Assembly (NCBI GenBank): GCA_018817515.1
Contig: JAHIUD010000107.1
Location: 1-48,509, forward strand
Direction of reading: 5' to 3'
Source: Pseudomonadota bacterium
GTDB taxonomy: Bacteria; Desulfobacterota; Desulfovibrionia; Desulfovibrionales; Desulfovibrionaceae
DNA length: 48,509 bases
Shown here: piece by piece, positions 31,047-45,477 of the stretch
Numbering within the stretch: position 1 is the stretch's first letter
Layout of the letters: each line of letters starts with the position of its first letter
Translations under genes and position numbers: made by a program
Notes under the pieces: model-generated
Told to the model about the DNA's origin: nothing
What the model saw: only the letters and a program-made list of their open reading frames with translations
Database searches by the model: none

Positions 31047-31074
31047 TTTGCGCCAGCGTCACGCCGGGGTAACA
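31047..31074. promoter_or_regulatory. Pho-box-like array between corA and the PhoB-type gene
   Basis: On the minus strand TGTTAC (31074-31069) and CGTGAC (31063-31058) repeat at an 11-bp period, followed by a weaker CGCAAA. Exactly 19 bases after CGTGAC lies GACATTCC (31038-31031), matching the spacing and element seen at 42703 and 45264. The array is nearly symmetrical (GTCAC, GTAAC on the plus strand), so it could also serve the regulator gene, which has TAGGGT at 31095 as a possible -10. Confidence 0.5.
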
Positions 31075-31161: not shown

Positions 31162-31848
31162 ATGGAACAGCGACGGATCATGGTGGTCGAAGATCACGCG
31201 GAGACCTGCGAACTTTTGCGCTACAACCTCACTGTTGCGGGCTTCGAGGTGCGCACGGCGTTAGACGGCCAGCAGGGCCTGAACATCATGACCCGGTGGC
31301 GGCCCGACCTGGTGCTGCTGGACCTGATGCTGCCGGAGATCGACGGCTTTGAGGTCTGCCGCAGGCTCAAGCAGATCACCTCGCTCAGCGCCGTGCCGGT
31401 GATCTTCCTCACGGCGCGCACCGACGAGGTGGACCGCGTGGTGGGCCTGGAGCTCGGGGCCGAGGATTACGTGCTCAAGCCCTTCAGCACCCGCGAGCTG
31501 CTCCTGCGCATCAAGATCGTGCTGCGCCGCACCAGCACGGAAGCGGGTGACGCCGAGGAACTGTTCGAGCGCGATGGGCTGTTGGTGAACTTTGCGGCCC
31601 ACGAGATGAACGTGGACGGAGACGCGCGCGTGCTCACGGCCACGGAGCAGAAGCTGTTCAAGGCCATCGTGCAGAGCCGGGGTCGGGTGCTCTCCCGCGA
31701 CCGCCTGCTCGACACGGTCTGGAACACGGATTTCGAGGGCACCTCGCGCACGGTGGACACGCACATGCGCCGCCTGCGCGCCAAGCTGGGACCCTATGCC
31801 GACTGGATCGAAACAGTGCGCGGCGTGGGGTACCGGTTCAAGGCCTGA
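31162..31848 (+). CDS. phoB: PhoB-type OmpR-family response regulator
   Basis: A 228-residue two-domain regulator. The receiver has the acidic pocket VVEDH (residues 8-12), phospho-acceptor Asp54 (LLDLMLPEIDGF), Thr84 (FLTART) and Lys106 (YVLKPF). The C-terminal domain (about 130-228) is an OmpR/PhoB winged helix: LTATEQKLFKAIVQSRGRVLSRDRLLDTVW then RTVDTHMRRLRAKL and VRGVGYRF. It could be PhoB; the call to phosphate control rests on the neighbouring Pho-box-like arrays and lipid-remodelling gene, and no PhoR kinase is adjacent. The ATG at 31162 has GGGAGA nine bases upstream; ATG 31138 is the alternative. Confidence 0.82.
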   Translation: MEQRRIMVVEDHAETCELLRYNLTVAGFEVRTALDGQQGLNIMTRWRPDLVLLDLMLPEIDGFEVCRRLKQITSLSAVPVIFLTARTDEVDRVVGLELGAEDYVLKPFSTRELLLRIKIVLRRTSTEAGDAEELFERDGLLVNFAAHEMNVDGDARVLTATEQKLFKAIVQSRGRVLSRDRLLDTVWNTDFEGTSRTVDTHMRRLRAKLGPYADWIETVRGVGYRFKA

Positions 31849-32045: not shown

Positions 32046-32399
32046 ATGCAGGAGATGTTGCGCAAACGCCTGATTGATGCCCTGGCAGACTGCCGCGTGC
32101 GGGCCTGCCCCGATGCCGAGCTGGATGAGCAGCCCCGCCTGGACGCCTGCGCCGACGAGAACGAGTTCGCCTCGCGCGTGGTGGAGGTGGGCATGCACCT
32201 GGCCCTGCGCCGCAGGCTGGAGGAGCGCCGGGGCGAGATCGAGGCCGCGCTGAAGCGCCTGGACAGAGGCTGCTACGGCGACTGCGAGGAATGCGGCGAG
32301 GAGATCGGCCTAGCCAGGCTCATGGCCAACCCCACTGCACAGTTGTGCGTCTATTGCCAGGCGGACAGCGAGCGCGGCCAGCTGCGCCGTTGCGCCTAA
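32046..32399 (+). CDS. TraR/DksA-family zinc finger protein
   Basis: A 117-residue protein with an N-terminal helical part, a long helix (VEVGMHLALRRRLEERRGEIEAALKRLDRG) and a four-cysteine zinc finger, CEECG then CVYCQ, in the TraR/DksA arrangement (GCYGDCEECGEEI-LARL-ANPTAQLC). DksA-like proteins insert into the secondary channel of RNA polymerase and tune transcription with ppGpp; this short form may be a stress-specific version. GGAGG precedes the ATG. It is followed after 11 bases by the PHP-GT4 fusion gene, a likely operon partner, and follows the PhoB-type gene. Confidence 0.88.
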   Translation: MQEMLRKRLIDALADCRVRACPDAELDEQPRLDACADENEFASRVVEVGMHLALRRRLEERRGEIEAALKRLDRGCYGDCEECGEEIGLARLMANPTAQLCVYCQADSERGQLRRCA

Positions 32400-32410
32400 A
32401 CGGAGGCCCT

Positions 32411-34867
32411 GTGACCCAAGACTCTTTCCGCATTGATCTGCACGTCCACTCCAAGTTCTCAACGCGTCCTTCGCAGTGGATCCTGCAACGCATGGGCTGC
32501 CCGGAGAGCTTCACCGAGCCCAGGCGCATTTACGACATCGCGCGCGCGCGCGGCATGGGCATGGTCACCATCACCGACCACAACACGGTGAACGGGTCCC
32601 TGGAGATCGCGCACCTGCCCGGCGCCTTCGTCAGCGAGGAGATTACCACCTACTTCCCCGAGGACCGTTGCAAGCTGCACGTCCTGGTCTATGACATCAC
32701 CGAGGCCCAGCACGCCGAATTCCAGCGCCTGCGTGAGAACGTCTACGACCTGGTGCCCTACCTGCGCGCAGAGGGCATCGTGCACGTGCTGGCGCACCCG
32801 CTCTTTGCGGTCAACGACCGCCTGACCCCGGCGCACTTCGAGAAGACGCTGCTCATGTTCAACATCTTTGAGCTCAACGGCTCGCGCGACGAGTCCCAGA
32901 ACGCCTTCCTGCGCCAGGTGGTGGAGGGGCTGCGCCCCGGGGACCTGGAGCATCTGGCCGACAAGCACGGCATCGAGCCATACGGCCCCGCGCCCTGGGC
33001 CAAGAGCCTGGTGGGCGGCAGCGACGACCATTCGTCCCTGTCCATCGCCCGCAGGCACACCGAGTTCGACGGCCCGGCCAGCCTGGACAACCTGCTCGAC
33101 GGCATCCGCCAGGGCCGGGGCCGGGTGCTGGGCGGCATGGCCTCGCCCTGGGCCATGGCCCACAACCTTTATGGCATCGCCTACCAGTTCTACAAAAGCC
33201 GCGCCGGGCGGCTGCCCCGCAGCCACGCCTGCATGCGTCTGGCCGACGCCCTGCTCGATCCTTCCCGGGCCGGGCGCGAGGCCCGCGCCACGCCCTTTGA
33301 GCGGCTGAGTGACCGGGTGCGCACCGCGCTGTACGAGCGCCTGGCCGACAAGGACTCGCCCCAGGCCATGCTCTTGTCCGAGGCCACGCGCATCATCCAG
33401 GCCGACCCGGAGCTGGCCGCCGCCGCGCGTGGCAGCCTGACCCGCAGCGTGCCGCCCGAGGAGCTCTGGCGGCGTTTCGTGCGCCGCGTCTCGGACAGGC
33501 TCCTGTCGCGCTTTGCGGACAAGATGCTGACCTCGGTGCGCAGCGCCAACATCTTCGAGCTGTTCCACGACGTGGCCTCGGCGGGATCGCTCTACGCGCT
33601 GCTCTCGCCCTATTTTCTGTCCACGGAGCTTTTCGCCAGGGAGCGCAGCTTCACCGGCCAGTGCATGGAGACCTTCGGGGTGCGCCAGGTCAAGAAACAT
33701 GGCTGCGAACTGCGCGTGGCGCATTTCACGGACACCTTCGCCGAGATCAACGGCGTGGCCCTGACCATCCAGCAGCAGATCGGCCTGGCCAAGAAATACG
33801 GCAAGGACATGACCTGCGTCACCTGTAACGTCGGACCCGTCATGGAAGGCGCCAAGAACTTCGAGCCCGTGGGCTCCTTCGCCATGCCCGAGTACCCGGA
33901 ACTGACCCTGGCCTACCCGCCGTTTCTGAAGATGCTGGCCTGGTGCTTCGAGCAGGACTTCGACTGCATCCTCACGGCCACGCCGGGCCCGGTCGGCCTG
34001 GCCGGGCTGGCCATTGCCCGCATCCTCAAGATTCCGGTCTACGGCACCTATCACACGGCCTTCCCGCAGTACGTGCGCCTGTTCACCGAGGACACCAGCA
34101 TGGAGGAGGCCGCCTGGCGCTACATGCGCTGGTTCTATGGCCAGATGGACGCCATCTACGCGCCCTCGAAGACCACCGCGCAGGAGCTCTCGGCCCACGG
34201 CATCGACAAGGACAAGATCGTGGTGCACCCGCGCGGGGTCGACGCCGAGCGCTTCCAGCCGGGCCGCCGCAACGGATTTTTCGACAAGCTGGGCCTGGGC
34301 CGCAACTTCAAGCTGCTCTACGTGGGCCGCGTCTCACGCGAGAAGGGCCTGGATGTGCTGGCCGAGGCCTACCGCACCGTGCATGCCCACCGGCCGGACA
34401 TCCGCCTGGTCATCGTGGGCGATGGACCCTACCTGGAGGAGATGCGCGCGCAGCTTAAAGGCCTGCCGGTGGTGTTCACGGGCTACCTCAAGGGCGCCGC
34501 TCTGGCAGAGGCCTACGCCGGGGCCGAACTCTTCGTGTTCCCCTCGGCCACGGACACCTTCGGCAACGTGGTGCTGGAGGCCCAGGCCTCGGGGGTGCCG
34601 GTGGTGGTGACCTCCTCCGGCGGGCCCAGGGAATCCATGGTGCCCGGCCGCACGGGCCTGGTGGTGCCGCCGGGCGATGCGCGCGCCCTGGCCCTGGCCG
34701 TGCTGGAGCTGGCGCTGGATCCCGACCGCCTGGTCGCCATGAGCCACGAGGCGCGCTGCCACGCCGCCAAGACCTCCTTTGACCAGGCCTTCCTCAAGAC
34801 CTGGGACATCTACGCCCAGGTGGTCCGCTGCGGCGTTTCGCCCCGGTCGCAGGGCCGGGCCGCCTAG
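32411..34867 (+). CDS. PHP phosphoesterase-GT4 glycosyltransferase fusion
   Basis: An 818-residue protein with two enzyme modules. Residues 1 to about 280 are a PHP metal-dependent phosphoesterase: IDLHVHSKFS with His11 and His13, TITDHNT with Asp56-His57, a later HVLAHPLF and GGSDDHSSL. Residues about 430-810 are a GT-B family 4 glycosyltransferase (RVAHFTDTFAEINGVALTI, LLYVGRVSREKGLDVL, VVIVGDGPY-like strand and FPSATDTFGNVVLEAQASG). The region between is helical. A similar GT4 type makes glycolipids that replace phospholipids when phosphate is short, which suits this neighbourhood, but the substrate is unknown. The start is GTG with GGAGG four bases upstream. Confidence 0.88.
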   Translation: MTQDSFRIDLHVHSKFSTRPSQWILQRMGCPESFTEPRRIYDIARARGMGMVTITDHNTVNGSLEIAHLPGAFVSEEITTYFPEDRCKLHVLVYDITEAQHAEFQRLRENVYDLVPYLRAEGIVHVLAHPLFAVNDRLTPAHFEKTLLMFNIFELNGSRDESQNAFLRQVVEGLRPGDLEHLADKHGIEPYGPAPWAKSLVGGSDDHSSLSIARRHTEFDGPASLDNLLDGIRQGRGRVLGGMASPWAMAHNLYGIAYQFYKSRAGRLPRSHACMRLADALLDPSRAGREARATPFERLSDRVRTALYERLADKDSPQAMLLSEATRIIQADPELAAAARGSLTRSVPPEELWRRFVRRVSDRLLSRFADKMLTSVRSANIFELFHDVASAGSLYALLSPYFLSTELFARERSFTGQCMETFGVRQVKKHGCELRVAHFTDTFAEINGVALTIQQQIGLAKKYGKDMTCVTCNVGPVMEGAKNFEPVGSFAMPEYPELTLAYPPFLKMLAWCFEQDFDCILTATPGPVGLAGLAIARILKIPVYGTYHTAFPQYVRLFTEDTSMEEAAWRYMRWFYGQMDAIYAPSKTTAQELSAHGIDKDKIVVHPRGVDAERFQPGRRNGFFDKLGLGRNFKLLYVGRVSREKGLDVLAEAYRTVHAHRPDIRLVIVGDGPYLEEMRAQLKGLPVVFTGYLKGAALAEAYAGAELFVFPSATDTFGNVVLEAQASGVPVVVTSSGGPRESMVPGRTGLVVPPGDARALALAVLELALDPDRLVAMSHEARCHAAKTSFDQAFLKTWDIYAQVVRCGVSPRSQGRAA

Positions 34868-34984: not shown

Positions 34985-35542
34985 TTATGCCTTGGGCTTG
35001 GCCTGGGCCTGGGCCGCGGCCACAGCCTTGCCGCCGGGCTCGTGACTGGCGGGGGCGGCGGTGGGCTTCACGTCCGATTTGGCCTGAACGGGCGCAGGCG
35101 TGGCGGCGTGAGGAGCGGGTTTCTTGTCGTCCGCCTTCTTCTCTTCTGCCTGTTTGACTTCGGGCTTTTTCACTTCAGGCTTCTTTTCCTCGGGCGATTT
35201 CGCATCGACTTTCTTGTCTTCCGGCTTCTTGTCGCCCAGCTTCTTGTAGTCGTTCTTGGCCGTCTCGGACAGCTCAGTGCCGATTTTGAAGCAGCCGCAG
35301 TCCTCTTCTTCCGCGGCCAGCATCCAGGACAGCTCAAGGGAGAACTTGGCCTTGTCCTTCTTGATGCGCGCCTCGATCTCCACCTCGGCCTTGCTCATGG
35401 CGGCGGGGTTCAGCACCAGATGCTCGCCGTCCTTCTCCACCACGATGCGCCCTGCGCGGAAGCCATTGGCCAGCGCGGTGAGGTAGTCGGCGACGTCGGC
35501 GGTCTCCATGATGGTCTTCAGCTCAATCTTGTCTTTCTCCAT
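34985..35542 (-). CDS. amphi-Trp domain protein with Lys/Pro/Ala-rich tail
   Basis: A 185-residue protein. The first about 70 residues are an amphi-Trp domain (IMETADVADYLTALANGFRAGRIVVEKDGEHLVLNP, ending in FSLELSW), the small domain named in the GAK system. A linker (EDCGCFKIGTELSETAKNDYKKLGDKK) leads into an about 80-residue low-complexity tail of K-x-E-D-K-K repeats followed by an Ala/Pro-rich part, expected to be disordered and highly charged. It lies last in the minus-strand GAK operon. AGGAGG precedes the ATG at 35542; the upstream frame is rejected. Role unknown; binding of a GAK substrate or surface is a guess. Confidence 0.85.
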   Translation of the reverse strand: MEKDKIELKTIMETADVADYLTALANGFRAGRIVVEKDGEHLVLNPAAMSKAEVEIEARIKKDKAKFSLELSWMLAAEEEDCGCFKIGTELSETAKNDYKKLGDKKPEDKKVDAKSPEEKKPEVKKPEVKQAEEKKADDKKPAPHAATPAPVQAKSDVKPTAAPASHEPGGKAVAAAQAQAKPKA

Positions 35543-35571
35543 GTTGGTAATCCTCCTGGGATATTTTGGTG

Positions 35572-36765
35572 TTACACAAGTGAGAGCAGGATCGGGACAA
35601 GGAACCTGTCGTCGATCTCCGTTGACGGGCCATAGCCGATGAGGGCGCAGTCGATGACCTCCAGCCCCAGGCGGCGGATGCGCTGGATGTCCAGCCCGCC
35701 GGGGTAGCGGCCATGCTTGGAATCCACCAGGACGTACTGGAGCACATCGTTTAAGGTGACGCGGCCCGGTTCGTCGGCCATGAGGTGCGCGGCCAGGGTC
35801 TCCACCTGGTCGGCCACGGACATGCCGAAACATTCCGGGTCGTCCCCGGTGGATGGGACATAGACCTTGGGACAGGTGGCCCGGGTGATGGACGAGCCGA
35901 TGCCCCGGGGCAAAAGGCTGGCCAGGAGGCTCGAATGGAAGCTGCCCATGGGGTAGCAGATGAGCTCGGCCTGGCGGATGAGCGAGCAGACCTTCTCGCG
36001 CGCGGCCGGGTAGATGGGCCGGGGCGTGTCCGCGTCCTGGGTGAGGTACAGGCGGCTGATGCGGCGGTTCAGGGGCTTGGCTTCCTTGCCGGTGAGCAGG
36101 TGCTGGCCCACGATGGTTTCGCCGTCGTCCATCTCGGCCACCAGGTGCAGGTGCTTGTTGACCACCGGGCGCACGATGCCGCGCACCTGCACGAGGTTGG
36201 AGAAGATGAAGATCACCGGGTCCAGGTGCCGCCGGTTTTCGAAATAGCCGCCGGTGAGCACCAGGTTGCCGATGCTCGCACCCGCAAGGTCGAAGTCCTC
36301 GGGCATGTGATCCCAGAAGGCGTGCAGGTGGTTGCGCACGATCTTGCGCATGGGATCGGGGATGCGCGAGACCAGGGGGTGCTTGCCCTTGACCATGCGC
36401 TCCAGGTCCAGCTTGCGGTCGTACGGGTCGCCGCCCTTGGGCAGGCGGTGGGCGAAGAGTTCGAAGATTTCCGGGTTGCCGCGCAGGCTCTGGTCGGCCA
36501 GGGACATGAGCCGGTTTCTGATGTCGCCCACCGCGGGCATCTGGAAGGCATCGCGCAGCTTGGCCGAGCTGCCGCCGGAGTCAAAGGGCGTGATGAGGTG
36601 GACGGAGTTGTGCGTGTAGTTGATCAGCCGGTTGCTGGTCTTTCTAAGCGCCGTGCCCCCGCTGAAGAACAACAGCTTCGGCCCCAGCTCCGGGCATTTC
36701 TCAAGCCTCGCCAGGGCCATGTGGTTCGGGATCTCGACTTCCCGGCGTATCCAGATGCGCGCCAC
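35572..36765 (-). CDS. CofD-related protein of the GAK system
   Basis: A 397-residue protein related to CofD (2-phospholactate transferase) and YvcK. The motif LLFFSGGTALRKTSNRLI corresponds to the N-terminal GGTG loop, HLITPFDSGGSSAKLRDAFQMPAVGDIRNRLMSLAD to the DGGSSGRLR / PPGDIRN block, and NLVLTGGYFENRRHLDPVI to the third conserved block. CofD enzymes bind a nucleotide and transfer a phospho-ester; the GAK members are not biochemically characterised. The start is GTG at 36765, 7 bases after the kinase stop with AGGGG upstream. Fixed neighbours (HprK-like kinase, ATP-grasp) support the family call. Confidence 0.85.
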   Translation of the reverse strand: MARIWIRREVEIPNHMALARLEKCPELGPKLLFFSGGTALRKTSNRLINYTHNSVHLITPFDSGGSSAKLRDAFQMPAVGDIRNRLMSLADQSLRGNPEIFELFAHRLPKGGDPYDRKLDLERMVKGKHPLVSRIPDPMRKIVRNHLHAFWDHMPEDFDLAGASIGNLVLTGGYFENRRHLDPVIFIFSNLVQVRGIVRPVVNKHLHLVAEMDDGETIVGQHLLTGKEAKPLNRRISRLYLTQDADTPRPIYPAAREKVCSLIRQAELICYPMGSFHSSLLASLLPRGIGSSITRATCPKVYVPSTGDDPECFGMSVADQVETLAAHLMADEPGRVTLNDVLQYVLVDSKHGRYPGGLDIQRIRRLGLEVIDCALIGYGPSTEIDDRFLVPILLSLV

Positions 36766-36772
36766 GATGCCC

Positions 36773-37879
36773 CTACCCGTGCAGCAGGTATTCGAGGCAG
36801 AAGTCCGCCGCGCGGTCAAAGTCCACGCCGCCGGTGATCTCCACCAGATCGCAGCGGGAGAGCAGGGCCGTGTAGGGCGCAAGGCCGGGATCGCTCCAGT
36901 CGCCCGCGCCGCCAGGGTTGTCAGGCGGCAGATAGAACAGGCCCGCAGCCTTCATGAAGGCCGGCAAAAGGTCCGGGCGCTCGGCGGCCTTGACGAAGCG
37001 GATGGCGGTCTCGCCCGCGCCGCGCTTCCAGTTCAGCACCACCAGGCCGTGCATGGGCGCGCTGAGCACGAAGCGGCCCTCGCCGAAACATTTGTCCAGG
37101 AACACGTCGTACTTGTGCTCCAGTTCCCAGAGGTCGTCGCCCTCCATGTCCTGGAAGCGCTGGCGGTCGTCGTCCGGCACCACGCTGTGCAGGTCCGGAT
37201 TGTTCAGGGCCGTGCCGGGATTGATGCGCGGCAGCTTGGCCACGCCGAACATGCTCAGACCCGCGCCGTTTTCGCGCACCAGCAGGCGGTCGTTGCTGAC
37301 GAAAAGCGCGCCCCGGCTCATGACGTGCATGGCCAGCGTGCTCTTGCCCGCGCCGGAGAACCCGGCCAGGGCCAGGCCGCGCATGCGGCCGTCGCGCAGG
37401 TGGGCCACGGCCGCGGAGTGCCCCAGCAGGCAGCCCTGGTTCAGCTTGTACTCGATGTAGCGATTGTTGACGAAGTTCACGATCTGGTTGGGGTTTTCCA
37501 GGCACGGACCAACGGCCAGGTTCACGTCCTGGCCAAAGAGGAAGACCATGCCGGTGAGCACCTTGCGCACCAGCCGCCCGCCGGGCAGGTCGGCGTATTC
37601 TTCCTTGATCTTGTCCTTGCCGGGGTCGGGCGTCTTGACGATCAGGTCCAGGGGCACGCTCGGGCTCGCGGCCTCAAGCGCCGTGAGGGTCAGGTCCGCC
37701 GACCCGGGCCCGGCCACGAAGGCCCCGAAGTAGCTGTCCAGCTCGGCCAAAAGCTCGGGGGAGTTGGACATGACCTTGATGCGGCAGTCGCCCAGGTCGA
37801 GGAACATCTCGTGGGGCGCGGCAAGGCCCCCGGCGAGCATGTCGGCGATGGTGCTCATGATGAATCTCTGGCCGGTCAT
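36773..37879 (-). CDS. HPr kinase-related kinase B of the GAK system
   Basis: A 368-residue P-loop kinase related to HPr kinase/phosphorylase. Walker A is GFSGAGKST at residues 173-181, followed by LAMHVMSRGALFVSNDRLLV, where SNDR holds the acidic residue that aligns with the HprK metal/catalytic site. The N-terminal 150 residues are unlike HprK and specific to the subfamily. It probably phosphorylates a partner protein or small molecule in the GAK pathway. Its start codon ATG at 37879 overlaps the ATP-grasp stop by 4 bases; an internal ATG at 37858 is the alternative start. Confidence 0.88.
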   Translation of the reverse strand: MTGQRFIMSTIADMLAGGLAAPHEMFLDLGDCRIKVMSNSPELLAELDSYFGAFVAGPGSADLTLTALEAASPSVPLDLIVKTPDPGKDKIKEEYADLPGGRLVRKVLTGMVFLFGQDVNLAVGPCLENPNQIVNFVNNRYIEYKLNQGCLLGHSAAVAHLRDGRMRGLALAGFSGAGKSTLAMHVMSRGALFVSNDRLLVRENGAGLSMFGVAKLPRINPGTALNNPDLHSVVPDDDRQRFQDMEGDDLWELEHKYDVFLDKCFGEGRFVLSAPMHGLVVLNWKRGAGETAIRFVKAAERPDLLPAFMKAAGLFYLPPDNPGGAGDWSDPGLAPYTALLSRCDLVEITGGVDFDRAADFCLEYLLHG

Positions 37880-38808
37880 TTGCGTATCCTCCCAAGCGCG
37901 TAGTGCGCATACATGCGGGCGGCGTCGATGCCGCGCGCCTCCTGGATGCCCCGGAAGCCGCCGAAGGCGGAAACCTCGAAGATGAACGGGCCTTCGTCCG
38001 TCAGGGCCACGTCGACGCAGGTGAAGTCCAGGCCAAAGGGTTCCTGGGCGCGGCGGGCCAGCTCGATGATTTCCGGCGAGGGGTCAAAGGGCACGTATTT
38101 GCCGCCCGAGGCCGTGGTGGTGTTCCACGCGCCGGACTTGCGCGTGCGGGCGTAGGTGGTCAGGTACTCGCCGCCCAGGAACACCACGCCGAGGTCCTGC
38201 TCGCCCACGTTGATGGCCCTTTGCAGGTAGAACACCGGGTTCTGGCGCTGGAAGGCCACAAGGGTCTCGCGCGCCTCGGAACCGGGGCGCAGCACGAGCA
38301 TGCCGCGCGCCTTGGTGGAGTAGAGCGGCTTGAGGATGGTCACGCCGTAGTCGGCCACGGCCTCCAGGGCCTGGTCCAGATTTTCGGTGATGGTGGTGTC
38401 CGGCATGGGGATGCCTGCAAGCTGAAGCGTCACGGTGCAGGCCAGGCGATTTAAAAGCCCGGCGATGGCCTGGGGCTGTGAAAAGATGCGCACCCCGCGT
38501 CCGGCCAGCAGGCGCAGCATCTCCAGGCGGTCCAGCAGATCCGCCGAGTAGGTGATGCCGAGCTTCTTGATGAGCAGGCCGTCGAAGGCGGACAGGTCGT
38601 GCCCCTGGTACATGGCCCGGCCAGAGGGCAGGTCAAGCCGCACCTGGTCCAGCTCCACCAGGAGCCTCTCGCCCCCGGTGGCCTCGGCCACGCGGTCGGC
38701 CAGGATCTCCGAGGACCAGCCCCCGCGCACCCCGATGACGGCCATTCGGGCCTGGGCGCTGGCGGAAGTCCTTTCCTCTGTCGGAAGCAAGGTCGTGTTC
38801 GTATGCAT
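37876..38808 (-). CDS. ATP-grasp enzyme of the GAK system
   Basis: A 310-residue ATP-grasp ligase similar to RimK/GshB. The N-terminal domain (AVIGVRGGWSSEILADRVAEATGG) is followed by the ATP-binding region: TILKPLYSTKARGM with the lysine that binds ATP, VFYLQRAI, DLGVVFLGGEYLTTYARTRKSGAWNTT, and a metal-ligand end FIFEVSAFGGFRGI with Glu in the place of the conserved E-x-N. ATP-grasp enzymes form amide or thioester bonds between a carboxylate and a nucleophile; the substrate is not known. The ATG at 38808 is preferred because GAGG lies six bases upstream. Confidence 0.87.
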   Translation of the reverse strand: MHTNTTLLPTEERTSASAQARMAVIGVRGGWSSEILADRVAEATGGERLLVELDQVRLDLPSGRAMYQGHDLSAFDGLLIKKLGITYSADLLDRLEMLRLLAGRGVRIFSQPQAIAGLLNRLACTVTLQLAGIPMPDTTITENLDQALEAVADYGVTILKPLYSTKARGMLVLRPGSEARETLVAFQRQNPVFYLQRAINVGEQDLGVVFLGGEYLTTYARTRKSGAWNTTTASGGKYVPFDPSPEIIELARRAQEPFGLDFTCVDVALTDEGPFIFEVSAFGGFRGIQEARGIDAARMYAHYALGRIRK

Positions 38809-38862
38809 TAGCGTCCTCAATGTCTGTGTTTCGGATGTCTCTGTTCCAGATGCCCGGGCCGA

Positions 38863-40512
38863 TTAGTGGAAGAGGATCTGCCAGGGCAGGCGGAAGTCCT
38901 GCCAGGGGAGGCCCTGGTGCGCGGCCACCTGCTCCAGCAGGTAGTGCGAGCGCAGGTACATCTCGCGGGAGAAGGCGTAGTTCAGCTCAAAGCGGCTGGA
39001 GGTGTACAGCGATCGGGCCAGGGCCAGGGCCAGGCGTGCCTCGAAGGTCTTGTCGCCACTTCTGGCCGCGAACTGCGTGGCGAACTGGAGGAACTCGGCG
39101 ATGACCCAGTCGATGCGCTCGCGCAGATGCGGCTCGAAGACCGGCATGCGGTAGTTGGAGATGAGGAACACCGAGACGTCCTGCACGTAGTCCTGCATGC
39201 GCGAGCGGTGCACATCGAGGTAGTGCAGGCGCTGCTTGTGGTGGTTGTAGACCACGTTGTTGACGTTGAAGTCGCCGTGGATGAGCACGCCGAAGGGGGC
39301 TGCAAGCCCGGCTTCGAGCGCGGCGCAGGCAGCCAGCAGCTCGCCCGTGGAGGGCACGGCCTTGGCGCCCAGGGTCTTGGCCCGGCGCAGGAAGTCCGGG
39401 TGGATTTGCAGCACCTCGTCCAGGCGGGCCTTGAGCTGGCCAACGTAGCACGCGGCGGCCGGCTCCGGCGTGCGGGTGTTCTCCCAGATGTCCTGCACGG
39501 TCTGGGTGAGCACGAACATGGCGTTCTGGACGATGTCCCCGCTTGCGGTCAAAAGCACCTCGTCGAGGTTGCAACCGGGCAGAAACTCCACCAGCATGGA
39601 GGCCTTGTCTCCGTCCTCGTGAAATCCGTAGACCCCCGCCACGAGGCCGGGATAGAGCCTTCCCCAGCGTTCCAGGGCCTCCTTCTCGGCGAGGATCTTT
39701 TTGCTGGTCCCTTCCTTGTAGATGCTGCCTAGGGCGTCCACGCCGCCCTCGTGGGCGTCGACCCGGCCGATGCGGCAGCCGCTGCGCGTGCCCCAGATGG
39801 CCTTGAAGTCCACGCCCTCCATGCCGCCTTCGAAGCCGGTCTTGGAGAGCGTCTGCTGCAGCGCCTCGAACTGCTCGATCTTGATGCGCTCGCCCAGGAT
39901 GGCGAAGATGAGCGCCTCGCCGATGTCCAGCAGCGAGTCGCCGATGCGCTCGAGGTAGCGGAAGATGAACAGCACGGTTATGAGATTCTGCACGTTCTTG
40001 CCCGTGCGCAGCTCGCCCATGATGCGGTCGAATCCGGCCTTGTACATGCGGTCGAGCGAGTACTCCGCGCGGCACACGGTCAGCGCGTCGGACAGGTTGC
40101 CGCCCTGGAACACCGGCAGGATGTGCCCCAGGCAGTCCTCGATCTCGATGAACATCTCCGCGTAGTTGTAGCCCTGCAGAAAGGTGTGGTCGGTCAGATA
40201 ATTGGTCTGCTCCACAATGTTTTCGCAGAAGTCGGCGATGCGTTCCAGATTGTTGGTGATTATCTGGATGGCGCGCACGCGGTTGGCTGTCGCCTTGTCC
40301 AGGCTCTGGGAGCCATTGTGGTCGTGGAAGTGGCCGTAGCACTTGTTCTCGATGACCGTGTGCAGGTTGTCGATGTAGTCGTCGCGGCCCACTATGCGGT
40401 CGTAGAGAGCGTGCGAGGGGGTGTCCAGGAAGCCGACCGTGGTGTGCACCTGGCGCTCCACCTCGGCCACCAGGAAGGTGAAGTTCTCCTCAAGTCCTTC
40501 AAAGGTGATCAT
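38863..40512 (-). CDS. PhoU-like domain fused to an APH-type phosphotransferase
   Basis: A 549-residue two-part protein. Residues 1 to about 215 form helices like PhoU (MITFEGLEENFTFLVAEVERQVHTTVGFLD, ITNNLERIADFCENIV, FRYLERIGDSLLDIGEALIFAILG), a domain that in the phosphate system links Pst transport to PhoR. The C-terminal part is an aminoglycoside-phosphotransferase-like kinase with catalytic loop HGDFNVNN (residues 412-419) and a metal motif near DVHRSR (433). The fusion itself ties phosphate sensing to phosphoryl transfer in the GAK operon. AAGGA precedes the ATG at 40512. The kinase substrate is unknown. Confidence 0.82.
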   Translation of the reverse strand: MITFEGLEENFTFLVAEVERQVHTTVGFLDTPSHALYDRIVGRDDYIDNLHTVIENKCYGHFHDHNGSQSLDKATANRVRAIQIITNNLERIADFCENIVEQTNYLTDHTFLQGYNYAEMFIEIEDCLGHILPVFQGGNLSDALTVCRAEYSLDRMYKAGFDRIMGELRTGKNVQNLITVLFIFRYLERIGDSLLDIGEALIFAILGERIKIEQFEALQQTLSKTGFEGGMEGVDFKAIWGTRSGCRIGRVDAHEGGVDALGSIYKEGTSKKILAEKEALERWGRLYPGLVAGVYGFHEDGDKASMLVEFLPGCNLDEVLLTASGDIVQNAMFVLTQTVQDIWENTRTPEPAAACYVGQLKARLDEVLQIHPDFLRRAKTLGAKAVPSTGELLAACAALEAGLAAPFGVLIHGDFNVNNVVYNHHKQRLHYLDVHRSRMQDYVQDVSVFLISNYRMPVFEPHLRERIDWVIAEFLQFATQFAARSGDKTFEARLALALARSLYTSSRFELNYAFSREMYLRSHYLLEQVAAHQGLPWQDFRLPWQILFH

Positions 40513-40526
40513 GTCTTCCTTGTGCC

Positions 40527-40799
40527 TTAAGAGGCGATGCAGATGGACTTGTCGCCAGTGGTGATCTCCTTGCGGGAGTCCTTCCAAACGATCTTGATGT
40601 TGATCTTGCTCTCGCTGTCCTTGCGCTTGGCCTTGACGCTGAAGCCCAGAACCGCGCTGGGCAGCAGGACGATCTCCTCGGCCTCGCTGCGCATGACGAT
40701 GCGGCCCTTGGCGAAGCCTTCGGTGAGCGCCAGGAGGAAGTCCTGGATGCTTTTGGGATCCTGTACGGAATCGAACTCGAACTTGCCTTCACCCGACAT
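40527..40799 (-). CDS. amphi-Trp domain protein (short form)
   Basis: A 90-residue stand-alone amphi-Trp domain: SIQDFLLALTEGFAKGRIVMRSEAEEIVLLPSAVLGFSVKAKRK and then the closing Trp in INIKIVWKDSRKEI. It is a second and tail-less copy beside the 34985-35542 protein. Known function is lacking for the domain; a role in binding a GAK substrate is possible. AGGAGG precedes the ATG. Position: third gene of the GAK operon, 14 bases before the PhoU-APH gene. Confidence 0.86.
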   Translation of the reverse strand: MSGEGKFEFDSVQDPKSIQDFLLALTEGFAKGRIVMRSEAEEIVLLPSAVLGFSVKAKRKDSESKINIKIVWKDSRKEITTGDKSICIAS

Positions 40800-40830
40800 G
40801 GTCTGCCTCCTTGCTGTTCGTGGCCCCGGC

Positions 40831-42057
40831 CTAGGATGCCAGGCGGGCCGAGTATTCGTTGATGACGCTGGCCCGGTCCATGCCCGCAGCCAAAAGCCGC
40901 TTGCGCACGCTTAAGTCGTCCCAGGCGGGCTGCAGGCCCACCTCGCGCGGGGGTTTGCCGTTTTGACCCTTGGGCAGCAGCTTCTCACTCAGGTGCGTGT
41001 CGTCGCCCATGAACACGAGCAGCCTGCGCGCCTCGCCCTTGGCCTTGCGGTTCTTGCGCGCCAGCACCTCGATGAGGAAGTCCGTGTAGCGCTGGGACTG
41101 GGGGTTCCAGACCTCGTAGCCGTCCACGTCGTACTCGGCCAGGAGGATGGGCCAGAACTGCTCCGGGTGCGGGATGACCACACCGGCGCCCATGCCCCGC
41201 GCCTCCTCGATGACCTCTGACGCGCGGTAGAAGTAGAGCAGGGGGAAGTCGTCCTTGACACGCAGCTTCACGGCCTGAACAAAGGCCTGCACGCGGGCCA
41301 CCAGGCGATCGCCGTAGCGCGGGCGCATGGCGTCCAGGAAGTTTCGGACAAGCTTGTTCTTGATGGCTCCTGCGGGCAGTCCGTCCTGGTGCCGCTCCAG
41401 CAGCGCCTCCAGCTTGCGGGCGTGCAGCCGGGCGAAGCGGATGGTCTCCTCCGCGGCCCCGGTGAAGGTGGCCACGGCCTGCAGGCGCTCCTCGTCCTTG
41501 CCTGTCAGCACGGCAAGGAATTCAAACAGCTGCGAGGAGCGGTAGCGGAAGGTGTGCGCGAGCATGGAGCGCAGCACCCCGGAACGCGGAAGCATACGGT
41601 TTTCGAAGTGCAGGAGCAGCTGAACCTTCTGGTTGAACCCGGCGGAGTAGCAGTCCACCTCCACGCCGGAATAGGCGCCGTAAGTGGTGATCTCGTTGTG
41701 CTGGGTCGGGATGATCAGCTCCTGGGTCTTGTTGGGAAAGCTGGCCTGGATGCGCTGCTCGATGAGCTGCATGGGGACGTGCTCCGGGTGCCAGTGCACG
41801 GCCAGCACGTTGGTCTGCCGGGCGGCCACCGTGTCCGGGGCGGTGATGCGCGCCGCTTCCTCCGGGGTCAGGGTGGTGGAGGTGATGGCCAGGAAGATGC
41901 GCTCGTCCTCTTCGGTGGGCTCGTCGGGCACGGCGTCGAGATCAGCCGTCTGCTGAGACGGCAAGTCAGACTTGCCGCCTTGGGGGACGGACTTGGCGTT
42001 CTGTGCGCCGGGCTTGTGGCTCTGTAAGGATGAAGGGCTCCCGCCTTGTCGACGCAC
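40831..42057 (-). CDS. PHP-like metallohydrolase of the GAK operon (divergent)
   Basis: A 408-residue protein that I do not recognise as a named family. It has signs of a PHP fold: a His-rich strand LAVHWHPEHVPM near residue 86, a metal-site-like IPHPEQFWPILLAEYDVDGYEVWNPQ block and a late MGDDTHLSEKLLP, which echoes the GSDxH motif seen in the PHP-GT4 gene. The middle contains helical repeats. The first about 55 residues are polar and disordered. The GTG start at 42057, 3 bases after the XXXCH stop, has no good ribosome binding site, so the true start may lie downstream. It is not among the GAK components I know. Confidence 0.6.
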   Translation of the reverse strand: MRRQGGSPSSLQSHKPGAQNAKSVPQGGKSDLPSQQTADLDAVPDEPTEEDERIFLAITSTTLTPEEAARITAPDTVAARQTNVLAVHWHPEHVPMQLIEQRIQASFPNKTQELIIPTQHNEITTYGAYSGVEVDCYSAGFNQKVQLLLHFENRMLPRSGVLRSMLAHTFRYRSSQLFEFLAVLTGKDEERLQAVATFTGAAEETIRFARLHARKLEALLERHQDGLPAGAIKNKLVRNFLDAMRPRYGDRLVARVQAFVQAVKLRVKDDFPLLYFYRASEVIEEARGMGAGVVIPHPEQFWPILLAEYDVDGYEVWNPQSQRYTDFLIEVLARKNRKAKGEARRLLVFMGDDTHLSEKLLPKGQNGKPPREVGLQPAWDDLSVRKRLLAAGMDRASVINEYSARLAS

Positions 42058-42060
42058 CGG

Positions 42061-42594
42061 CTATTTGGCTACGGCGTGGCAGGTCTTCTTGGCGCTCTCG
42101 ATCTCCCCAATGATCATCTCCAGCGCGCCCCGGTCCTTCTTGTCGAAGGCGGTCTTGAGCTCGTTGCAGAGCTTGAGGTGCGGGCCGTAGTCCGCCTCGC
42201 CGCGGGAGGGGTGCGAGCACATGGCCAGGGAGTCGGTCAAAAAGGCCTCCACGATCTCCGCCGGGGGCAGCACGAGGTTGCCCAGGCTGTGCTGCAGGAA
42301 CTTGAAGGAGGTCTTCAGGCGCTTCTTGATGGACTTGTAGGACTCGGCGCGGGGTGTGCCCGTGGCGGTATCCTTCTGTCCGGATGCTCCCTTGGCCTTG
42401 ACCTTCAACTCGGCCAGGCCGCCCTGCTGCTTCAGGGAGAACTCCAGTTTGGCGCAGTGTTCAATCTGTGAGGCGAAGCCGTTGAGCGCGCCCGGCAGAA
42501 CCGCGCGCTTGATGCCCTCGGCCAGGATCTTGAGCAGCCGCTCGGCCTCGCTGCTCTCCAGGATGATCTCAATCTTTTTGTCATTGCTACCCAT
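42061..42594 (-). CDS. XXXCH-domain protein of the GAK system
   Basis: A 177-residue protein. The first half (KIEIILESSEAERLLKILAEGIKRAVLPG-LNGFASQI) is a divergent amphi-Trp-like domain, and the C-terminal helical part ends in KKTCHAVAK with the Cys-His that names the XXXCH family. Such proteins occur with GAK kinases and ATP-grasp enzymes and are otherwise unknown. The ATG at 42594 follows GGAGGAGG; a second upstream ATG (42609) sits inside that ribosome binding site. It is the first gene of the eight-gene minus-strand operon, directly below the Pho-box-like promoter region. Confidence 0.85.
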   Translation of the reverse strand: MGSNDKKIEIILESSEAERLLKILAEGIKRAVLPGALNGFASQIEHCAKLEFSLKQQGGLAELKVKAKGASGQKDTATGTPRAESYKSIKKRLKTSFKFLQHSLGNLVLPPAEIVEAFLTDSLAMCSHPSRGEADYGPHLKLCNELKTAFDKKDRGALEMIIGEIESAKKTCHAVAK

Positions 42595-42650
42595 GGTGTC
42601 CTCCTCCATGTTTCGTGTCCGCCAGGACTACCCCGGAAAACAGCGCCGGT

Positions 42651-42678
42651 TGTCACCCCAATGTTACGATGGCGTGAA
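42651..42678. promoter_or_regulatory. Pho-box-like array A between GAK operon and arsC
   Basis: TGTCAC (42651-42656), TGTTAC (42662-42667) and CGTGAA (42673-42678) repeat at an exact 11-bp period, like the half-sites of a PhoB operator. The units are near-palindromic, so direction is uncertain: toward arsC, with GAATAT at 42702 as a possible -10, or toward the GAK operon. Confidence 0.55.
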
Positions 42679-42727
42679 ATCGCGCAGCTGGTCTGCGCCG
42701 GGAATATCTCCGTGCCGCTGCAGGCTC

Positions 42728-42755
42728 CTCACATCTTTGGAACGCTGGCGTAACA
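42728..42755 (-). promoter_or_regulatory. Pho-box-like array B of the GAK operon
   Basis: On the minus strand TGTTAC (42755-42750), CGTTCC (42744-42739) and TGTGAG (42733-42728) repeat every 11 bp. Nineteen bases downstream lies GATATTCC (-10 hexamer GATATT at 42708-42703), the same spacing and element as at 45264 and 31033. Confidence 0.55.
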
Positions 42756-42837: not shown

Positions 42838-43293
42838 ATGGAAAAGCTAAAGGTATTGTTCCTCTGCACGCAAAACAGCGCGCGCAGCCAGATGGCGGAG
42901 GAGTTCCTTCGCCAGTTCGCCGGGGATTCCTTCGAGGTGGAGAGCGCGGGCCTTGAGCCCGCCGCTGCGGTCAATCCCCTGGTGGTGGAGGTCATGGCCG
43001 AGGTGGGACTCGACCTCTCGCAAAAGAAGCCGCAGAGCGTCTTTGATCTGTTCCGGGCCGGGCGCATCTACGATTTCCTCATCACCGTATGCGATTCCAC
43101 TACGGCGGAGCGCTGTCCGATATTCCCCGGCATGACCCAACGCTGGCACTGGCCCTTTCCGGATCCTGCCAAGGCGTCGGGCACGCGCGAGGAGCAGCTG
43201 GCCGAGGTCAGGCGCATCCGCGAGCTCATTCGCGAGCGTGTACAGCGTCCTTTCAATGCGACCTTCGATGCGCAGGACCCCTTCGCCAGATAG
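42838..43293 (+). CDS. arsC: Arsenate reductase-type low-molecular-weight phosphatase (ArsC)
   Basis: A 151-residue protein of the low-molecular-weight protein tyrosine phosphatase fold that includes thioredoxin-coupled arsenate reductases. The phosphate loop CTQNSARS starts at Cys10 and ends with Arg16. Cys85 and Cys93 ([15 protein letters not shown]) match the second and third redox cysteines of that ArsC class, and the DP general-acid motif is seen in [13 protein letters not shown] precedes the ATG. Arsenate enters through phosphate transporters, so placement beside Pho-like promoters makes sense. No arsR or arsenite pump gene is adjacent. Confidence 0.9.
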
Positions 43294-43307: not shown

Positions 43308-45173
43308 TCAGGCGGCCTTGGGCGGTCGGCAGTCCGTGGGGTTCCGGTCTTCGCTGGCTGTCTTTGGCGCATGGTGAGCCAAAAATCGCCGGGCGCCCTC
43401 CGAGCCCATGAACCGGGCCAGCACGCGCTGATCCGCAGAGCGCAGGTCCACGCAGATGAGCCCGTCCAGGCAGTCGCCGAAGTCCGGGTCCAGGTTGAAG
43501 GCCGCGATGCGCCCGCCGAGTTTCAGGTATTGCCGCAAGAGCACAGGGATGCCCCGGCCCGACTCAACCTCGGCCACCAGGTCGTTGATGTCGGAGGGAT
43601 CGCGGAAGGCCGTCTCCGGCACGCTCAGGTCCAGCCGGGAGAGCTGGCCGCCCTTGGGCGCGCGCGTGGGCCTGACCAGCCGGGCCAGCTCGGCGTCGAA
43701 GCTGTGGCGGCGCAGGAAGGTCATCATGATCTCCCGCGAGAGCGGGTGATAATCCCCGGAGATGCTGACGCAGCCGAAGAGCTTGCTGTAGCGCGGGTTT
43801 CTCGCCACATACTCGGCCAGGCCCTTCCAGAGCAGCAAAAGCGGCTGGTAGGACTTCTGGTAGCGCGGGCGCACAAAGCTGCGGCCCAGCTCCAGGGCCG
43901 GGCCCAGGCGGTCCCAGAAGCCGTGCTTGATGCGGAACTGGCTGGCTGTGTACATGCCGCCTGTGCCCTGGACGGCGAGCACCTCGTCGGTGCCGGCGAA
44001 GCGGTACGCCCCGGCCACCTCGCGGTCCTTCTCGTGCCACAGGACCAGGTGCCGGTAGTGGCTGTCGAAGCGGTCCGTGTCCAGTGATTCGCCCGTGCCC
44101 TCGCCCACTCGGCGGAAGGTGGCCTCGCGCAGGCGCGAGACCTCGTGCAGCACGGCGGGGATCTCGGCGGCCTTGGCCTCGAACACGATGAAGGGCTCGC
44201 TGCGGGCCAGGATGCGGTCGGCGGGCAGGGCGTCGATCTCGGCCTGGCGCGCCAGGTGCGGCTTTTGCGCGGCCAGGGCCTTCTGCGCCTTGGCGCGGTC
44301 CGCGATCTTGACCAGGCCCTGGCGGCCACGGTTGCGCAGCAGGTGGCAGCGGAAGCGCAGGTAGGCCGAAGCCTCGTCATTGGTGGCGAAGGCGGCGAGC
44401 TTCTCCGGGCTGATGGGCGTGCCCAGGGACAGCTCCAGCTCCTGGCCGCAGTGGCCCAGGTTTTCGTGCGGCAAAAGCAGGGTGCGCAGGCGCGGATGCA
44501 CCAGCCCGGCGGCCTGGAAGAGCGCGCTGTTGCGGCCCCGGAAGAACACCGGCAGCACCGGCGCCTTGGCCTTGCGCACGATGGCCGCCACGCCGGGCTG
44601 CCAGGGCGGGTCGACCACCATGCGCTTCTTCAGGGCCAGGCTCGAAACCTCGCCCGCCGGAAAGGCGATGAGCGCGCCGCCCTGCTTGAGCCAGGCAAGG
44701 GAGGCCCGCAGTCCGGCCATGTTGCGCGTGGCCGAGCCCTTGCCGCCAAAGGGGTCGAGCTCGATGAGCAGGGGCCGCATTTCGGGGATGCTCGCCAGCA
44801 GGTGGTTGGCCAGGATCTTCACGTCCGGCCGGATCTCCAGGAGGATGCGCGCCAGCACGAGCCCCTCCACAACGCCGAAGGGGTGGTTGGACACGATGAA
44901 CAGCGGCCCCTGGCGCGGTATGTTCTTGAGGTCGTCGTGGGCCACCTTGAAGCCCACGGCCAACTCGTCCAGGGCGCGCACCAGGAAGTCCGGGGTGCCC
45001 TCGGGCCCGGCTGGCCGGGTGTTGGCGCGGGCGTACATGGTGTTCAGCGTGCTCAGGCGCAGGAGTTTTTTCAGGGGCTTGTGCAGGGCGGACTTGAGCG
45101 CGGCCTGGAAGGGGTTGCCCGTGACGGGCGGAAGCTGGAAAGGGCCTTCGTCGGGGAAGGTGCTGTTTTGCAT
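43308..45173 (-). CDS. olsF: OlsF-like bifunctional acyltransferase (ornithine-lipid synthase)
   Basis: A 621-residue protein joining two acyltransferases. The N-terminal PlsC-like domain carries FIVSNHPFGVVEG (His97 and Glu103; most relatives have Asp at the second place) and FPAGEVS at 171-177. The C-terminal part (after about residue 300) is a GNAT fold of the OlsB/hemolysin type: LREATFRRVGEGTG, LVLWHEKDREVAGAYR, LELGRSFVRPRYQKS, LFGCVSISGDY. This order matches OlsF, which makes phosphate-free ornithine lipids that replace phospholipids in phosphate starvation. The ATG at 45173 has AAGGG upstream, and a Pho-box-like array lies 115 bases before it. Confidence 0.85.
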   Translation of the reverse strand: MQNSTFPDEGPFQLPPVTGNPFQAALKSALHKPLKKLLRLSTLNTMYARANTRPAGPEGTPDFLVRALDELAVGFKVAHDDLKNIPRQGPLFIVSNHPFGVVEGLVLARILLEIRPDVKILANHLLASIPEMRPLLIELDPFGGKGSATRNMAGLRASLAWLKQGGALIAFPAGEVSSLALKKRMVVDPPWQPGVAAIVRKAKAPVLPVFFRGRNSALFQAAGLVHPRLRTLLLPHENLGHCGQELELSLGTPISPEKLAAFATNDEASAYLRFRCHLLRNRGRQGLVKIADRAKAQKALAAQKPHLARQAEIDALPADRILARSEPFIVFEAKAAEIPAVLHEVSRLREATFRRVGEGTGESLDTDRFDSHYRHLVLWHEKDREVAGAYRFAGTDEVLAVQGTGGMYTASQFRIKHGFWDRLGPALELGRSFVRPRYQKSYQPLLLLWKGLAEYVARNPRYSKLFGCVSISGDYHPLSREIMMTFLRRHSFDAELARLVRPTRAPKGGQLSRLDLSVPETAFRDPSDINDLVAEVESGRGIPVLLRQYLKLGGRIAAFNLDPDFGDCLDGLICVDLRSADQRVLARFMGSEGARRFLAHHAPKTASEDRNPTDCRPPKAA

Positions 45174-45477
45174 ATGCGTCCCTTTGCTGCTGGTTCGCGG
45201 CGCCAACCTTGGGCGCCGGGGAAACCGGCAACGCGGTGCGTCCGCGTCCCGTCTGCAAAAGGGAATATGCGGTTCAAGGCGGCGCTTGGTGACCGCAGCG
45301 TGACAACGGAGTGAAACTCGCGTCCGCGCGTTCAGGCTCCGGCGAAGTCGGTTGAGGGCGCCTCATGTGCGCCTGTGTATTTTTGTTCGCAGTATTCTTA
45401 AAACAGTTGCCCATTGTATTGCTTGGGGTATATGTTTTATTCTTGTGAAAAGGTCTCATGCATCCTGGGGGCAGCCG
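45174..45477. other. Divergent regulatory gap between OlsF-like and sensor genes
   Basis: About 300 bases without a gene. The left part carries the Pho-box-like array. The right part is AT-rich (45380-45450) and holds a possible promoter for the sensor gene, TTGCCC near 45410 with TATATG about 16 bases later; it is not certain. Confidence 0.5.
45289..45316 (-). promoter_or_regulatory. Pho-box-like array of the OlsF-like gene
   Basis: On the minus strand TTTCAC (45316-45311), TGTCAC (45305-45300) and GGTCAC (45294-45289) repeat at an 11-bp period. Nineteen bases after the last unit is CATATTCCC (-10 hexamer CATATT at 45269-45264). The best of the arrays in this window. Confidence 0.65.

Follow-up and report, generated by a model that had tools for sequence, protein, structure and literature searches.

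The GAK operon and its products

The GAK system is a set of protein families named in NCBIfam (TIGR04354 to TIGR04358) under model names that state neither a function nor Pho control. We analyzed a GAK locus of a bacterium of the Desulfovibrionaceae (assembly GCA_018817515.1, contig JAHIUD010000107.1); the whole stretch of 48,509 nucleotides studied is referred to here as the window. An original prediction, made from the letters of the window, had placed in it an eight-gene minus-strand GAK operon behind a promoter with PhoB-like operators and had linked the system to phosphate starvation. A reading of the open reading frames confirms a complete operon of eight closely packed genes on the minus strand at 34985 to 42609, in which all five kinds of protein named in NCBIfam are present and exceed the cut-offs of their models. 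The genes, in an order that is common to many GAK loci, are as follows.

42064 to 42594, minus strand: XXXCH protein, 177 amino acids (TIGR04358, 71.9 bits, cut-off 40)
40834 to 41931, minus strand: predicted PHP-fold metal-dependent phosphoesterase with a helical insert, assigned from its predicted structure (start uncertain; the open reading frame opens at 42057)
40527 to 40799, minus strand: amphi-Trp protein 1, 90 amino acids (TIGR04354, 62.1 bits, cut-off 31)
38866 to 40512, minus strand: PhoU domain fused to an APH/EcKL-type kinase, 549 amino acids (PF01895 at 2.6e-20, EcKL at 7e-6)
37879 to 38808, minus strand: GAK ATP-grasp enzyme, RimK/MptN-like (TIGR04356, 431.6 bits, cut-off 300)
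36776 to 37879, minus strand: HprK-related kinase B (TIGR04355, 496 bits, cut-off 200)
35572 to 36765, minus strand: GAK CofD-like protein (start inferred, the open reading frame opens at 36882; TIGR04357, 538 bits, cut-off 340)
34985 to 35542, minus strand: amphi-Trp protein 2, with a Lys/Ala/Pro-rich tail (start inferred; TIGR04354, 60.2 bits, cut-off 31)

The named models cover neither the PhoU-kinase nor the PHP protein. The PhoU-like fusion that had been predicted among the members is indeed there, and its two halves match different PDB chains (PhoU, 4q25 at 1.5e-19; APH(3'), 4feu at 1e-4), with the HGDFNVNN and LDVHR motifs of the protein intact. Gene 2 had no Pfam or NCBIfam match up to an E value of 0.01, and comparison of its profile with PDB sequences gave nothing useful; the PHP fold emerged from structure comparison. 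The PHP enzymes 3e0f, 3o0f, and 9etk were the sole Foldseek matches below 0.001 for its predicted model (predicted local distance difference test [pLDDT] score of 91), and alignment with 3o0f gave a VIA Z of 16.0 and a root mean square deviation of 3.6 over 247 residues. Residues H46, H48, H78, H108, H255, D311, and H313 are invariant in 26 aligned rows. As modeled, gene 2 is a PHP-fold phosphoesterase that carries the His/Asp set of a metal site.

The XXXCH protein is made up of an amphi-Trp-like N-terminal half (hhalign probability against amphi-Trp, 92.9) and a C-terminal four-helix bundle with a Cys-His pair at its end, C172 and H173, which is invariant across 21 aligned rows. Its predicted structure (pLDDT 83) found no Foldseek match below 0.001. 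A likeness of the helical half to cytochrome c' (VIA Z of about 10.8) was considered and rejected; helical bundles can reach such a score by chance, and therefore no heme function is claimed. For the ATP-grasp enzyme, all 10 PDB matches at 1e-5 were RimK/LysX-type ligases, the enzyme is not nearer to ITPK/PPIP5K-type kinases, and the best non-GAK NCBIfam matches were MptN and RimK. Its EVSA-x-GGF motif is invariant in 23 rows, with Ser in place of the Asn of RimK-type enzymes. HprK-related kinase B has the P-loop GFSGAGKST and matches the PDB HprK structure 2qmh (2.3e-5) over profile positions 153 to 205, while the best non-GAK NCBIfam match of the CofD-like protein was YvcK and its Pfam match was CofD. 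The amphi-Trp family alignment has only three invariant columns and no obvious acceptor residue. No polyphosphate kinase (PPK) family was among the NCBIfam and Pfam matches of the operon proteins. A defense role was dropped, since none of the seven operon proteins compared with PADLOC (all but amphi-Trp protein 2) matched a defense family.

Pho boxes upstream of GAK operons

Both strands of the window were scanned for three KTMAC units at a period of 11, with a threshold of 13/15; the unit published for Desulfovibrio vulgaris PhoB was also run. The text on this box gives it as (c/t)GT(n)AC repeats with a 4-base spacer (PMC3333781), whereas the arrays in the window have a period of 11, like those of Escherichia coli. 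Only four arrays reached the threshold, at 31047 (+), 42652 (-), 42728 (+), and 45289 (-), and the published unit returned the same four.

42651 to 42678, minus strand: Pho-box array of the GAK operon (array 1), TTCAC-N6-GTAAC-N6-GTGAC on the minus strand, 14/15 to three (c/t)GT(n)AC units
42728 to 42755, plus strand: second Pho-box-like array (array 2), directed towards arsC by KTMAC, 13/15
45289 to 45315, minus strand: Pho-box array upstream of an OlsF-like gene, 15/15 to three KTMAC units
31047 to 31073, plus strand: Pho-box-like array upstream of a PhoB-type regulator, 13/15

The four arrays precede the PhoB-type regulator, the GAK operon, arsC, and the OlsF-like gene, so that the operon is part of a Pho island. 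In 100 first-order Markov sequences of the window, sites scoring at least 13 numbered 0.77 on average (up to 5) and sites scoring at least 14 numbered 0.03, compared with 4 and 2 in the window itself. The two arrays with an 11-bp period that had been predicted at the GAK promoter both exist; however, array 2 reads on the plus strand, towards arsC, when scored by KTMAC, and scores 13/15 on both strands, a tie, when scored by (c/t)GT(n)AC. The arrays at 31047 to 31073 and 45289 to 45315 had been overlooked.

When three published units were required and no more than one mismatch was allowed, the 3.6 Mb of the genome to which the window belongs yielded five boxes, and the reversed pattern, run as a control, yielded none. 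The five boxes precede GAK, a phnCD-like transporter, pstB-phoU, an EAL-type gene, and a chemotaxis-like gene (the last two in L151/L157); the phn, EAL, and chemotaxis names come from our reading of the translations. PhoB targets listed in the D. vulgaris study include phosphate transport, PhoU, and HD/EAL genes (PMC3333781). An exact search of the same genome for the E. coli consensus CTGTCAT-N4-CTGTCA found no occurrence; the Desulfovibrio form of the box was needed. PstS loci, tried as the source of a box matrix, yielded mixed boxes and were not used for that purpose.

The original prediction had made its case depend on similar arrays upstream of GAK loci in other genomes, and such arrays are present. 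Three published units at 13/15 or better, on either strand, were found upstream of 14 of 55 GAK operons, compared with 19 of 377 other genes from these loci (Fisher, 7.6e-6). With KTMAC, a unit picked only after inspection of the sequences, coding-strand arrays at the same threshold precede 20 of 40 related GAK operons but only 15 of 377 other genes (3e-14); outside the window's class they precede 8 of 13 (4e-8). The excess is restricted to period 11: in a sample of 51 operons and 356 controls, KTMAC arrays were found at 20 operons and 15 controls at this period, while periods 8 to 10 and 12 to 14 gave at most 1 operon with KTMAC and at most 2 with the published unit. Loci L032 to L036, from the same genus, carry arrays of the window's GAK form at 14 to 15/15. 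A search for CTGTCAT pairs, which covered 68 of the 80 distant loci, found pairs at 11/14 or better upstream of 7 of 43 GAK loci, mainly proteobacterial, compared with 13 of 520 controls.

Gene starts in the loci from other genomes were guessed by a script. L132 and L147, with fewer than 150 bases upstream, were dropped from the counts of 55 and 40 operons; the 55 include three second copies (L148 to L150), and the 40 are the 55 minus these copies, 11 loci in which 1,100 bases were searched, and the short L134. The controls contain no pst, phoU, olsF, arsC, ABC-ATPase, or GAK genes, but other true Pho genes may be among them. Fisher probabilities, like those of BLAST, treat related sequences as independent; the array-test values are too small because the sequences are related, and the direction of the effect is alike in every group.

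Gene order also places GAK next to phosphate uptake. In Desulfovibrio gigas (G035) it lies directly behind pstB-phoU; in L048, L054, L055, L164, and L171 it immediately follows phoU, and in L043 and L044 an HprK_B-CofD pair follows pstB-phoU, none of these seven loci having an array. GAK stands behind pstA in L137 and L167, both of which have perfect arrays. The arrays and the position behind pstB-phoU make it very probable that the GAK operon is under Pho control, here and in many relatives. To this extent the proposed action in phosphate starvation is well supported, while the phosphate-linked or phosphate-free product proposed with it belongs to the interpretation given below.

Distribution of GAK and polyphosphate kinase

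GAK loci reach many phyla, including Proteobacteria, Planctomycetes, Myxococcota, and others. The recurring core in 80 named loci and in 57 others with HprK_B consists of PhoU-kinase, ATP-grasp, and HprK_B, and the 45 genomes with full-length PhoU-kinase in a panel of 66 are precisely those that have HprK_rel_B. An overlap filter hid the ATP-grasp enzyme in some locus rows (59 matches; 46 listed), and a 362-residue frame in L048 was discarded as a masked stretch, not a gene. PHP and XXXCH proteins are found in Desulfobacterota and some further phyla, XXXCH being rare among the 80 distant loci, with 16 matches, and several distant GAK loci are without CofD. Within the window's class, Desulfovibrionia, CofD_rel_GAK is present in 244 of 297 genomes and is thus more widespread than HprK_rel_B. 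CofD_rel_GAK also occurs apart from the GAK core (L041, L042, L087 to L089), either with XXXCH and amphi-Trp only or with no GAK neighbors. Genus g2, in which one genome only has HprK_B, is an example of stand-alone CofD_rel_GAK; among five genomes of the window's own genus with no CofD_rel_GAK match, all but G250 keep HprK_rel_B.

Many proteobacterial and some planctomycete and myxococcal GAK loci additionally contain a SixA-NUDIX fusion, a second histidine phosphatase, and an ApaH-like metallophosphatase. At least one of the SixA-NUDIX, histidine phosphatase, and ApaH-like genes was found in 40 of the 164 loci searched, and SixA-NUDIX and metallophosphatase together in 23. The closest PDB match of the NUDIX half is diphosphoinositol polyphosphate phosphohydrolase (DIPP; 1.4e-6), and the metallophosphatase resembles ApaH weakly.

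For counts in the class, a genome was scored as having GAK if its match to HprK_rel_B reached 1e-40, with second copies counted as well. HprK_rel_B was found in 123 of the 297 genomes and PPK1 in 58, with an overlap of 0 where 24 would be expected. Of the 53 genera, 8 have PPK1 and 33 have HprK_rel_B, and two genera have both but in different species. In the phylum outside the class, PPK1 was present in 0 of 18 genomes with GAK and in 4 of 55 without it, which is uninformative. PPK2 exceeded its cut-off in 3 of the 66 panel genomes, all of which lack GAK, and a GAK-bearing genome, G112, gave a weak PPK2 match below the cut-off. Neither PPK1 nor PPK2 was matched in the window's own genome (95% complete) or found in the D. 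gigas genome.

Proposed function and competing explanations

The GAK families comprise a PhoU-fused kinase of the small-molecule type, an HprK-type P-loop kinase, a RimK-like ATP-grasp enzyme, a CofD-like transferase, and a PHP phosphoesterase, and this mix of kinase and phosphatase suggests a phosphate-rich molecule. Such a product is favored because phosphatases, some of them of pyrophosphate-cleaving families, accompany GAK in other phyla, and because GAK excludes PPK1 in the window's class, though not elsewhere. Judged from family chemistry and from this exclusion, the chance that GAK makes a phosphorylated small molecule is a little short of even. We tentatively propose, as a reading that could nearly as well be right as wrong, that GAK is activated by PhoB and both synthesizes and turns over a small molecule with several phosphate groups, which would store phosphorus or signal phosphate state; the product is perhaps a phosphorus store other than polyphosphate. 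The PhoU-kinase and HprK_B would put phosphate on a small scaffold, which the ATP-grasp and CofD-like enzymes would build or extend, or to which they would add phosphate in turn. Phosphatases would free the phosphate on demand, and the PhoU half would couple its kinase to PhoR and the Pst transporter. Binding or packaging of the product would fall to the amphi-Trp and XXXCH proteins. In class members without PPK1, GAK would stand in for polyphosphate synthesis, with which it would share the role of a phosphorus store.

The eukaryotic inositol pyrophosphate cycle uses ATP-grasp kinases, DIPP NUDIX enzymes, and a histidine acid phosphatase. GAK is like it in having an ATP-grasp enzyme, DIPP-like NUDIX and histidine phosphatases in many loci, and a tie to phosphate regulation, but differs in that its ATP-grasp enzyme is RimK-like and two extra kinase folds are present. 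A more specific form of the proposal, which we regard as unlikely, is that GAK synthesizes a pyrophosphorylated sugar or polyol; this would be the bacterial equivalent of the inositol pyrophosphates and would act as phosphorus store and phosphate signal. In D. gigas the compound would be glucose pentakis(diphosphate). This compound was reportedly found in D. gigas granules by Hensgens in 1996, and we know of no genes for its synthesis. D. gigas, in which neither PPK1 nor PPK2 was found, is nevertheless described, in a passage citing Jones and Chambers (1975), as forming large phosphorus granules, there called polyphosphate (PMC5134017).

Several observations weigh against the proposed function or the Pho control on which it builds. 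The chief objection is that sequence comparison places the ATP-grasp enzyme closest to the amino-acid ligases RimK, LysX, and MptN and not to known ATP-grasp kinases. Lineage or lifestyle may account for the exclusion of PPK1 in the class; at the genus level the exclusion is weak (P = 0.026), and 116 of the 297 genomes have neither HprK_rel_B nor PPK1. Among 46 GAK-bearing genomes of other phyla, drawn from the set of 80 loci, 28 also have PPK1, and GAK is therefore no general replacement for PPK. Reverse-strand arrays were found at 6 of 43 GAK operons versus 20 of 377 other genes, and half of the tested operons have no array at 13/15 or better, several of these not being behind pst (L046, L047, L076, L080, and L084). 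The window's own genome has a second HprK_rel_B operon (L148, G000:C79:17001-37000) with XXXCH, PHP, amphi-Trp, PhoU-kinase, ATP-grasp, and HprK_B genes, which is without CofD and has no Pho box upstream. In the D. vulgaris PhoB study by DNA affinity purification and chip (DAP-chip), GAK genes are not mentioned in the passages on PhoB targets that were consulted (PMC3333781). Finally, PhoB targets are expected to be on at low phosphate, the very condition in which the granules of Desulfovibrio alaskensis are described as disappearing (PMC5193443).

The likeness of the ATP-grasp enzyme to amino-acid ligases speaks for two rivals, a product like the F420 tail and a modification of proteins. Coenzyme F420 tail synthesis uses CofD and CofF/MptN. 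By analogy, the GAK kinases would activate a small acid, the CofD-like protein would make a phosphodiester, and the MptN/CofF-like ATP-grasp enzyme would add amino acids; Pho control would then reflect a need for such a molecule, or for a phosphate-free substitute, at low phosphate. We consider this rather unlikely. A CofD-family protein and an MptN-like ATP-grasp enzyme, the two components on which the comparison was made, are shared by both systems, the best non-GAK matches of these proteins point in this direction, the PDB neighbors of the ATP-grasp enzyme are C-N ligases, and an OlsF-like gene lies under the same kind of box. However, CofD is dispensable in GAK, being absent from the L148 operon and several distant loci, and F420-type chemistry explains neither the histidine, ApaH-like, and NUDIX phosphatases of many loci nor the exclusion of PPK1. 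A role in signaling and protein modification is also rather improbable in our estimate: here the HprK-like and PhoU-APH kinases would phosphorylate, and the RimK-like enzyme would aminoacylate, the amphi-Trp and XXXCH proteins, which would act on Pst, PhoR, and others. Proteins are the substrates of both HPr kinase and RimK, and the PhoU domain and the small conserved partner proteins, one with the invariant Cys-His, would fit such a role. Yet XXXCH is scarce in the distant loci, the three invariant columns of amphi-Trp offer no obvious acceptor, and APH/EcKL and NUDIX enzymes mostly act on small molecules.

The arrays and the neighborhood might also be incidental, with GAK outside the Pho regulon, a view that could draw on the strong array being limited to half of the GAK operons and on the choice of KTMAC after the sequences had been seen. 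We regard it as very improbable: the published unit is significant by itself, the excess is specific to period 11, coding-strand orientation predominates, and the position behind pstB-phoU is independent of any motif.

Placement in the Pho regulon, the exact tracking of HprK_rel_B by the PhoU-kinase, and the exclusion of PPK1 in one class turn a list of domains into a testable system. Should the product be a phosphate-rich small molecule, as we tentatively propose, phosphorus storage in sulfate reducers would follow a route that has nothing to do with polyphosphate kinase, and the pyrophosphate-signaling logic of eukaryotes might operate in bacteria as well. A search of PMC literature found nothing on the GAK system, and XXXCH appeared only in papers that were unrelated, as judged by title.

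Genes adjacent to the GAK operon

The window contains the following genes around the operon.

31162 to 31848, plus strand: PhoB-type response regulator (TIGR02154 PhoB best of 97 models, 221.8 bits, cut-off 296)
32291 to 34867: PHP domain fused to a glycosyltransferase (best model GlcN-PG synthase, also monoglucosyl-DAG synthase, all below cut-off)
42838 to 43293, plus strand: arsC-like arsenate reductase, divergent from GAK (TIGR02691, 120 bits, cut-off 174)
43308 to 45206, minus strand: OlsF-like bifunctional acyltransferase, phosphate-free ornithine-lipid type (NF052615, 392 bits, cut-off 620)

The predicted PhoB-type, arsC, and OlsF-like neighbors were all recovered; their scores are below the NCBIfam cut-offs, and they are therefore named as "type" or "like". 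The PHP-glycosyltransferase, whose PHP half was read from the translation, is possibly an enzyme of phosphate-free glycolipid synthesis, and the fusion recurs beside GAK in same-genus loci. An arsC gene lies near GAK in other families too (L069, L070, and L140), an arrangement that would fit a link between phosphate starvation and the handling of arsenate.

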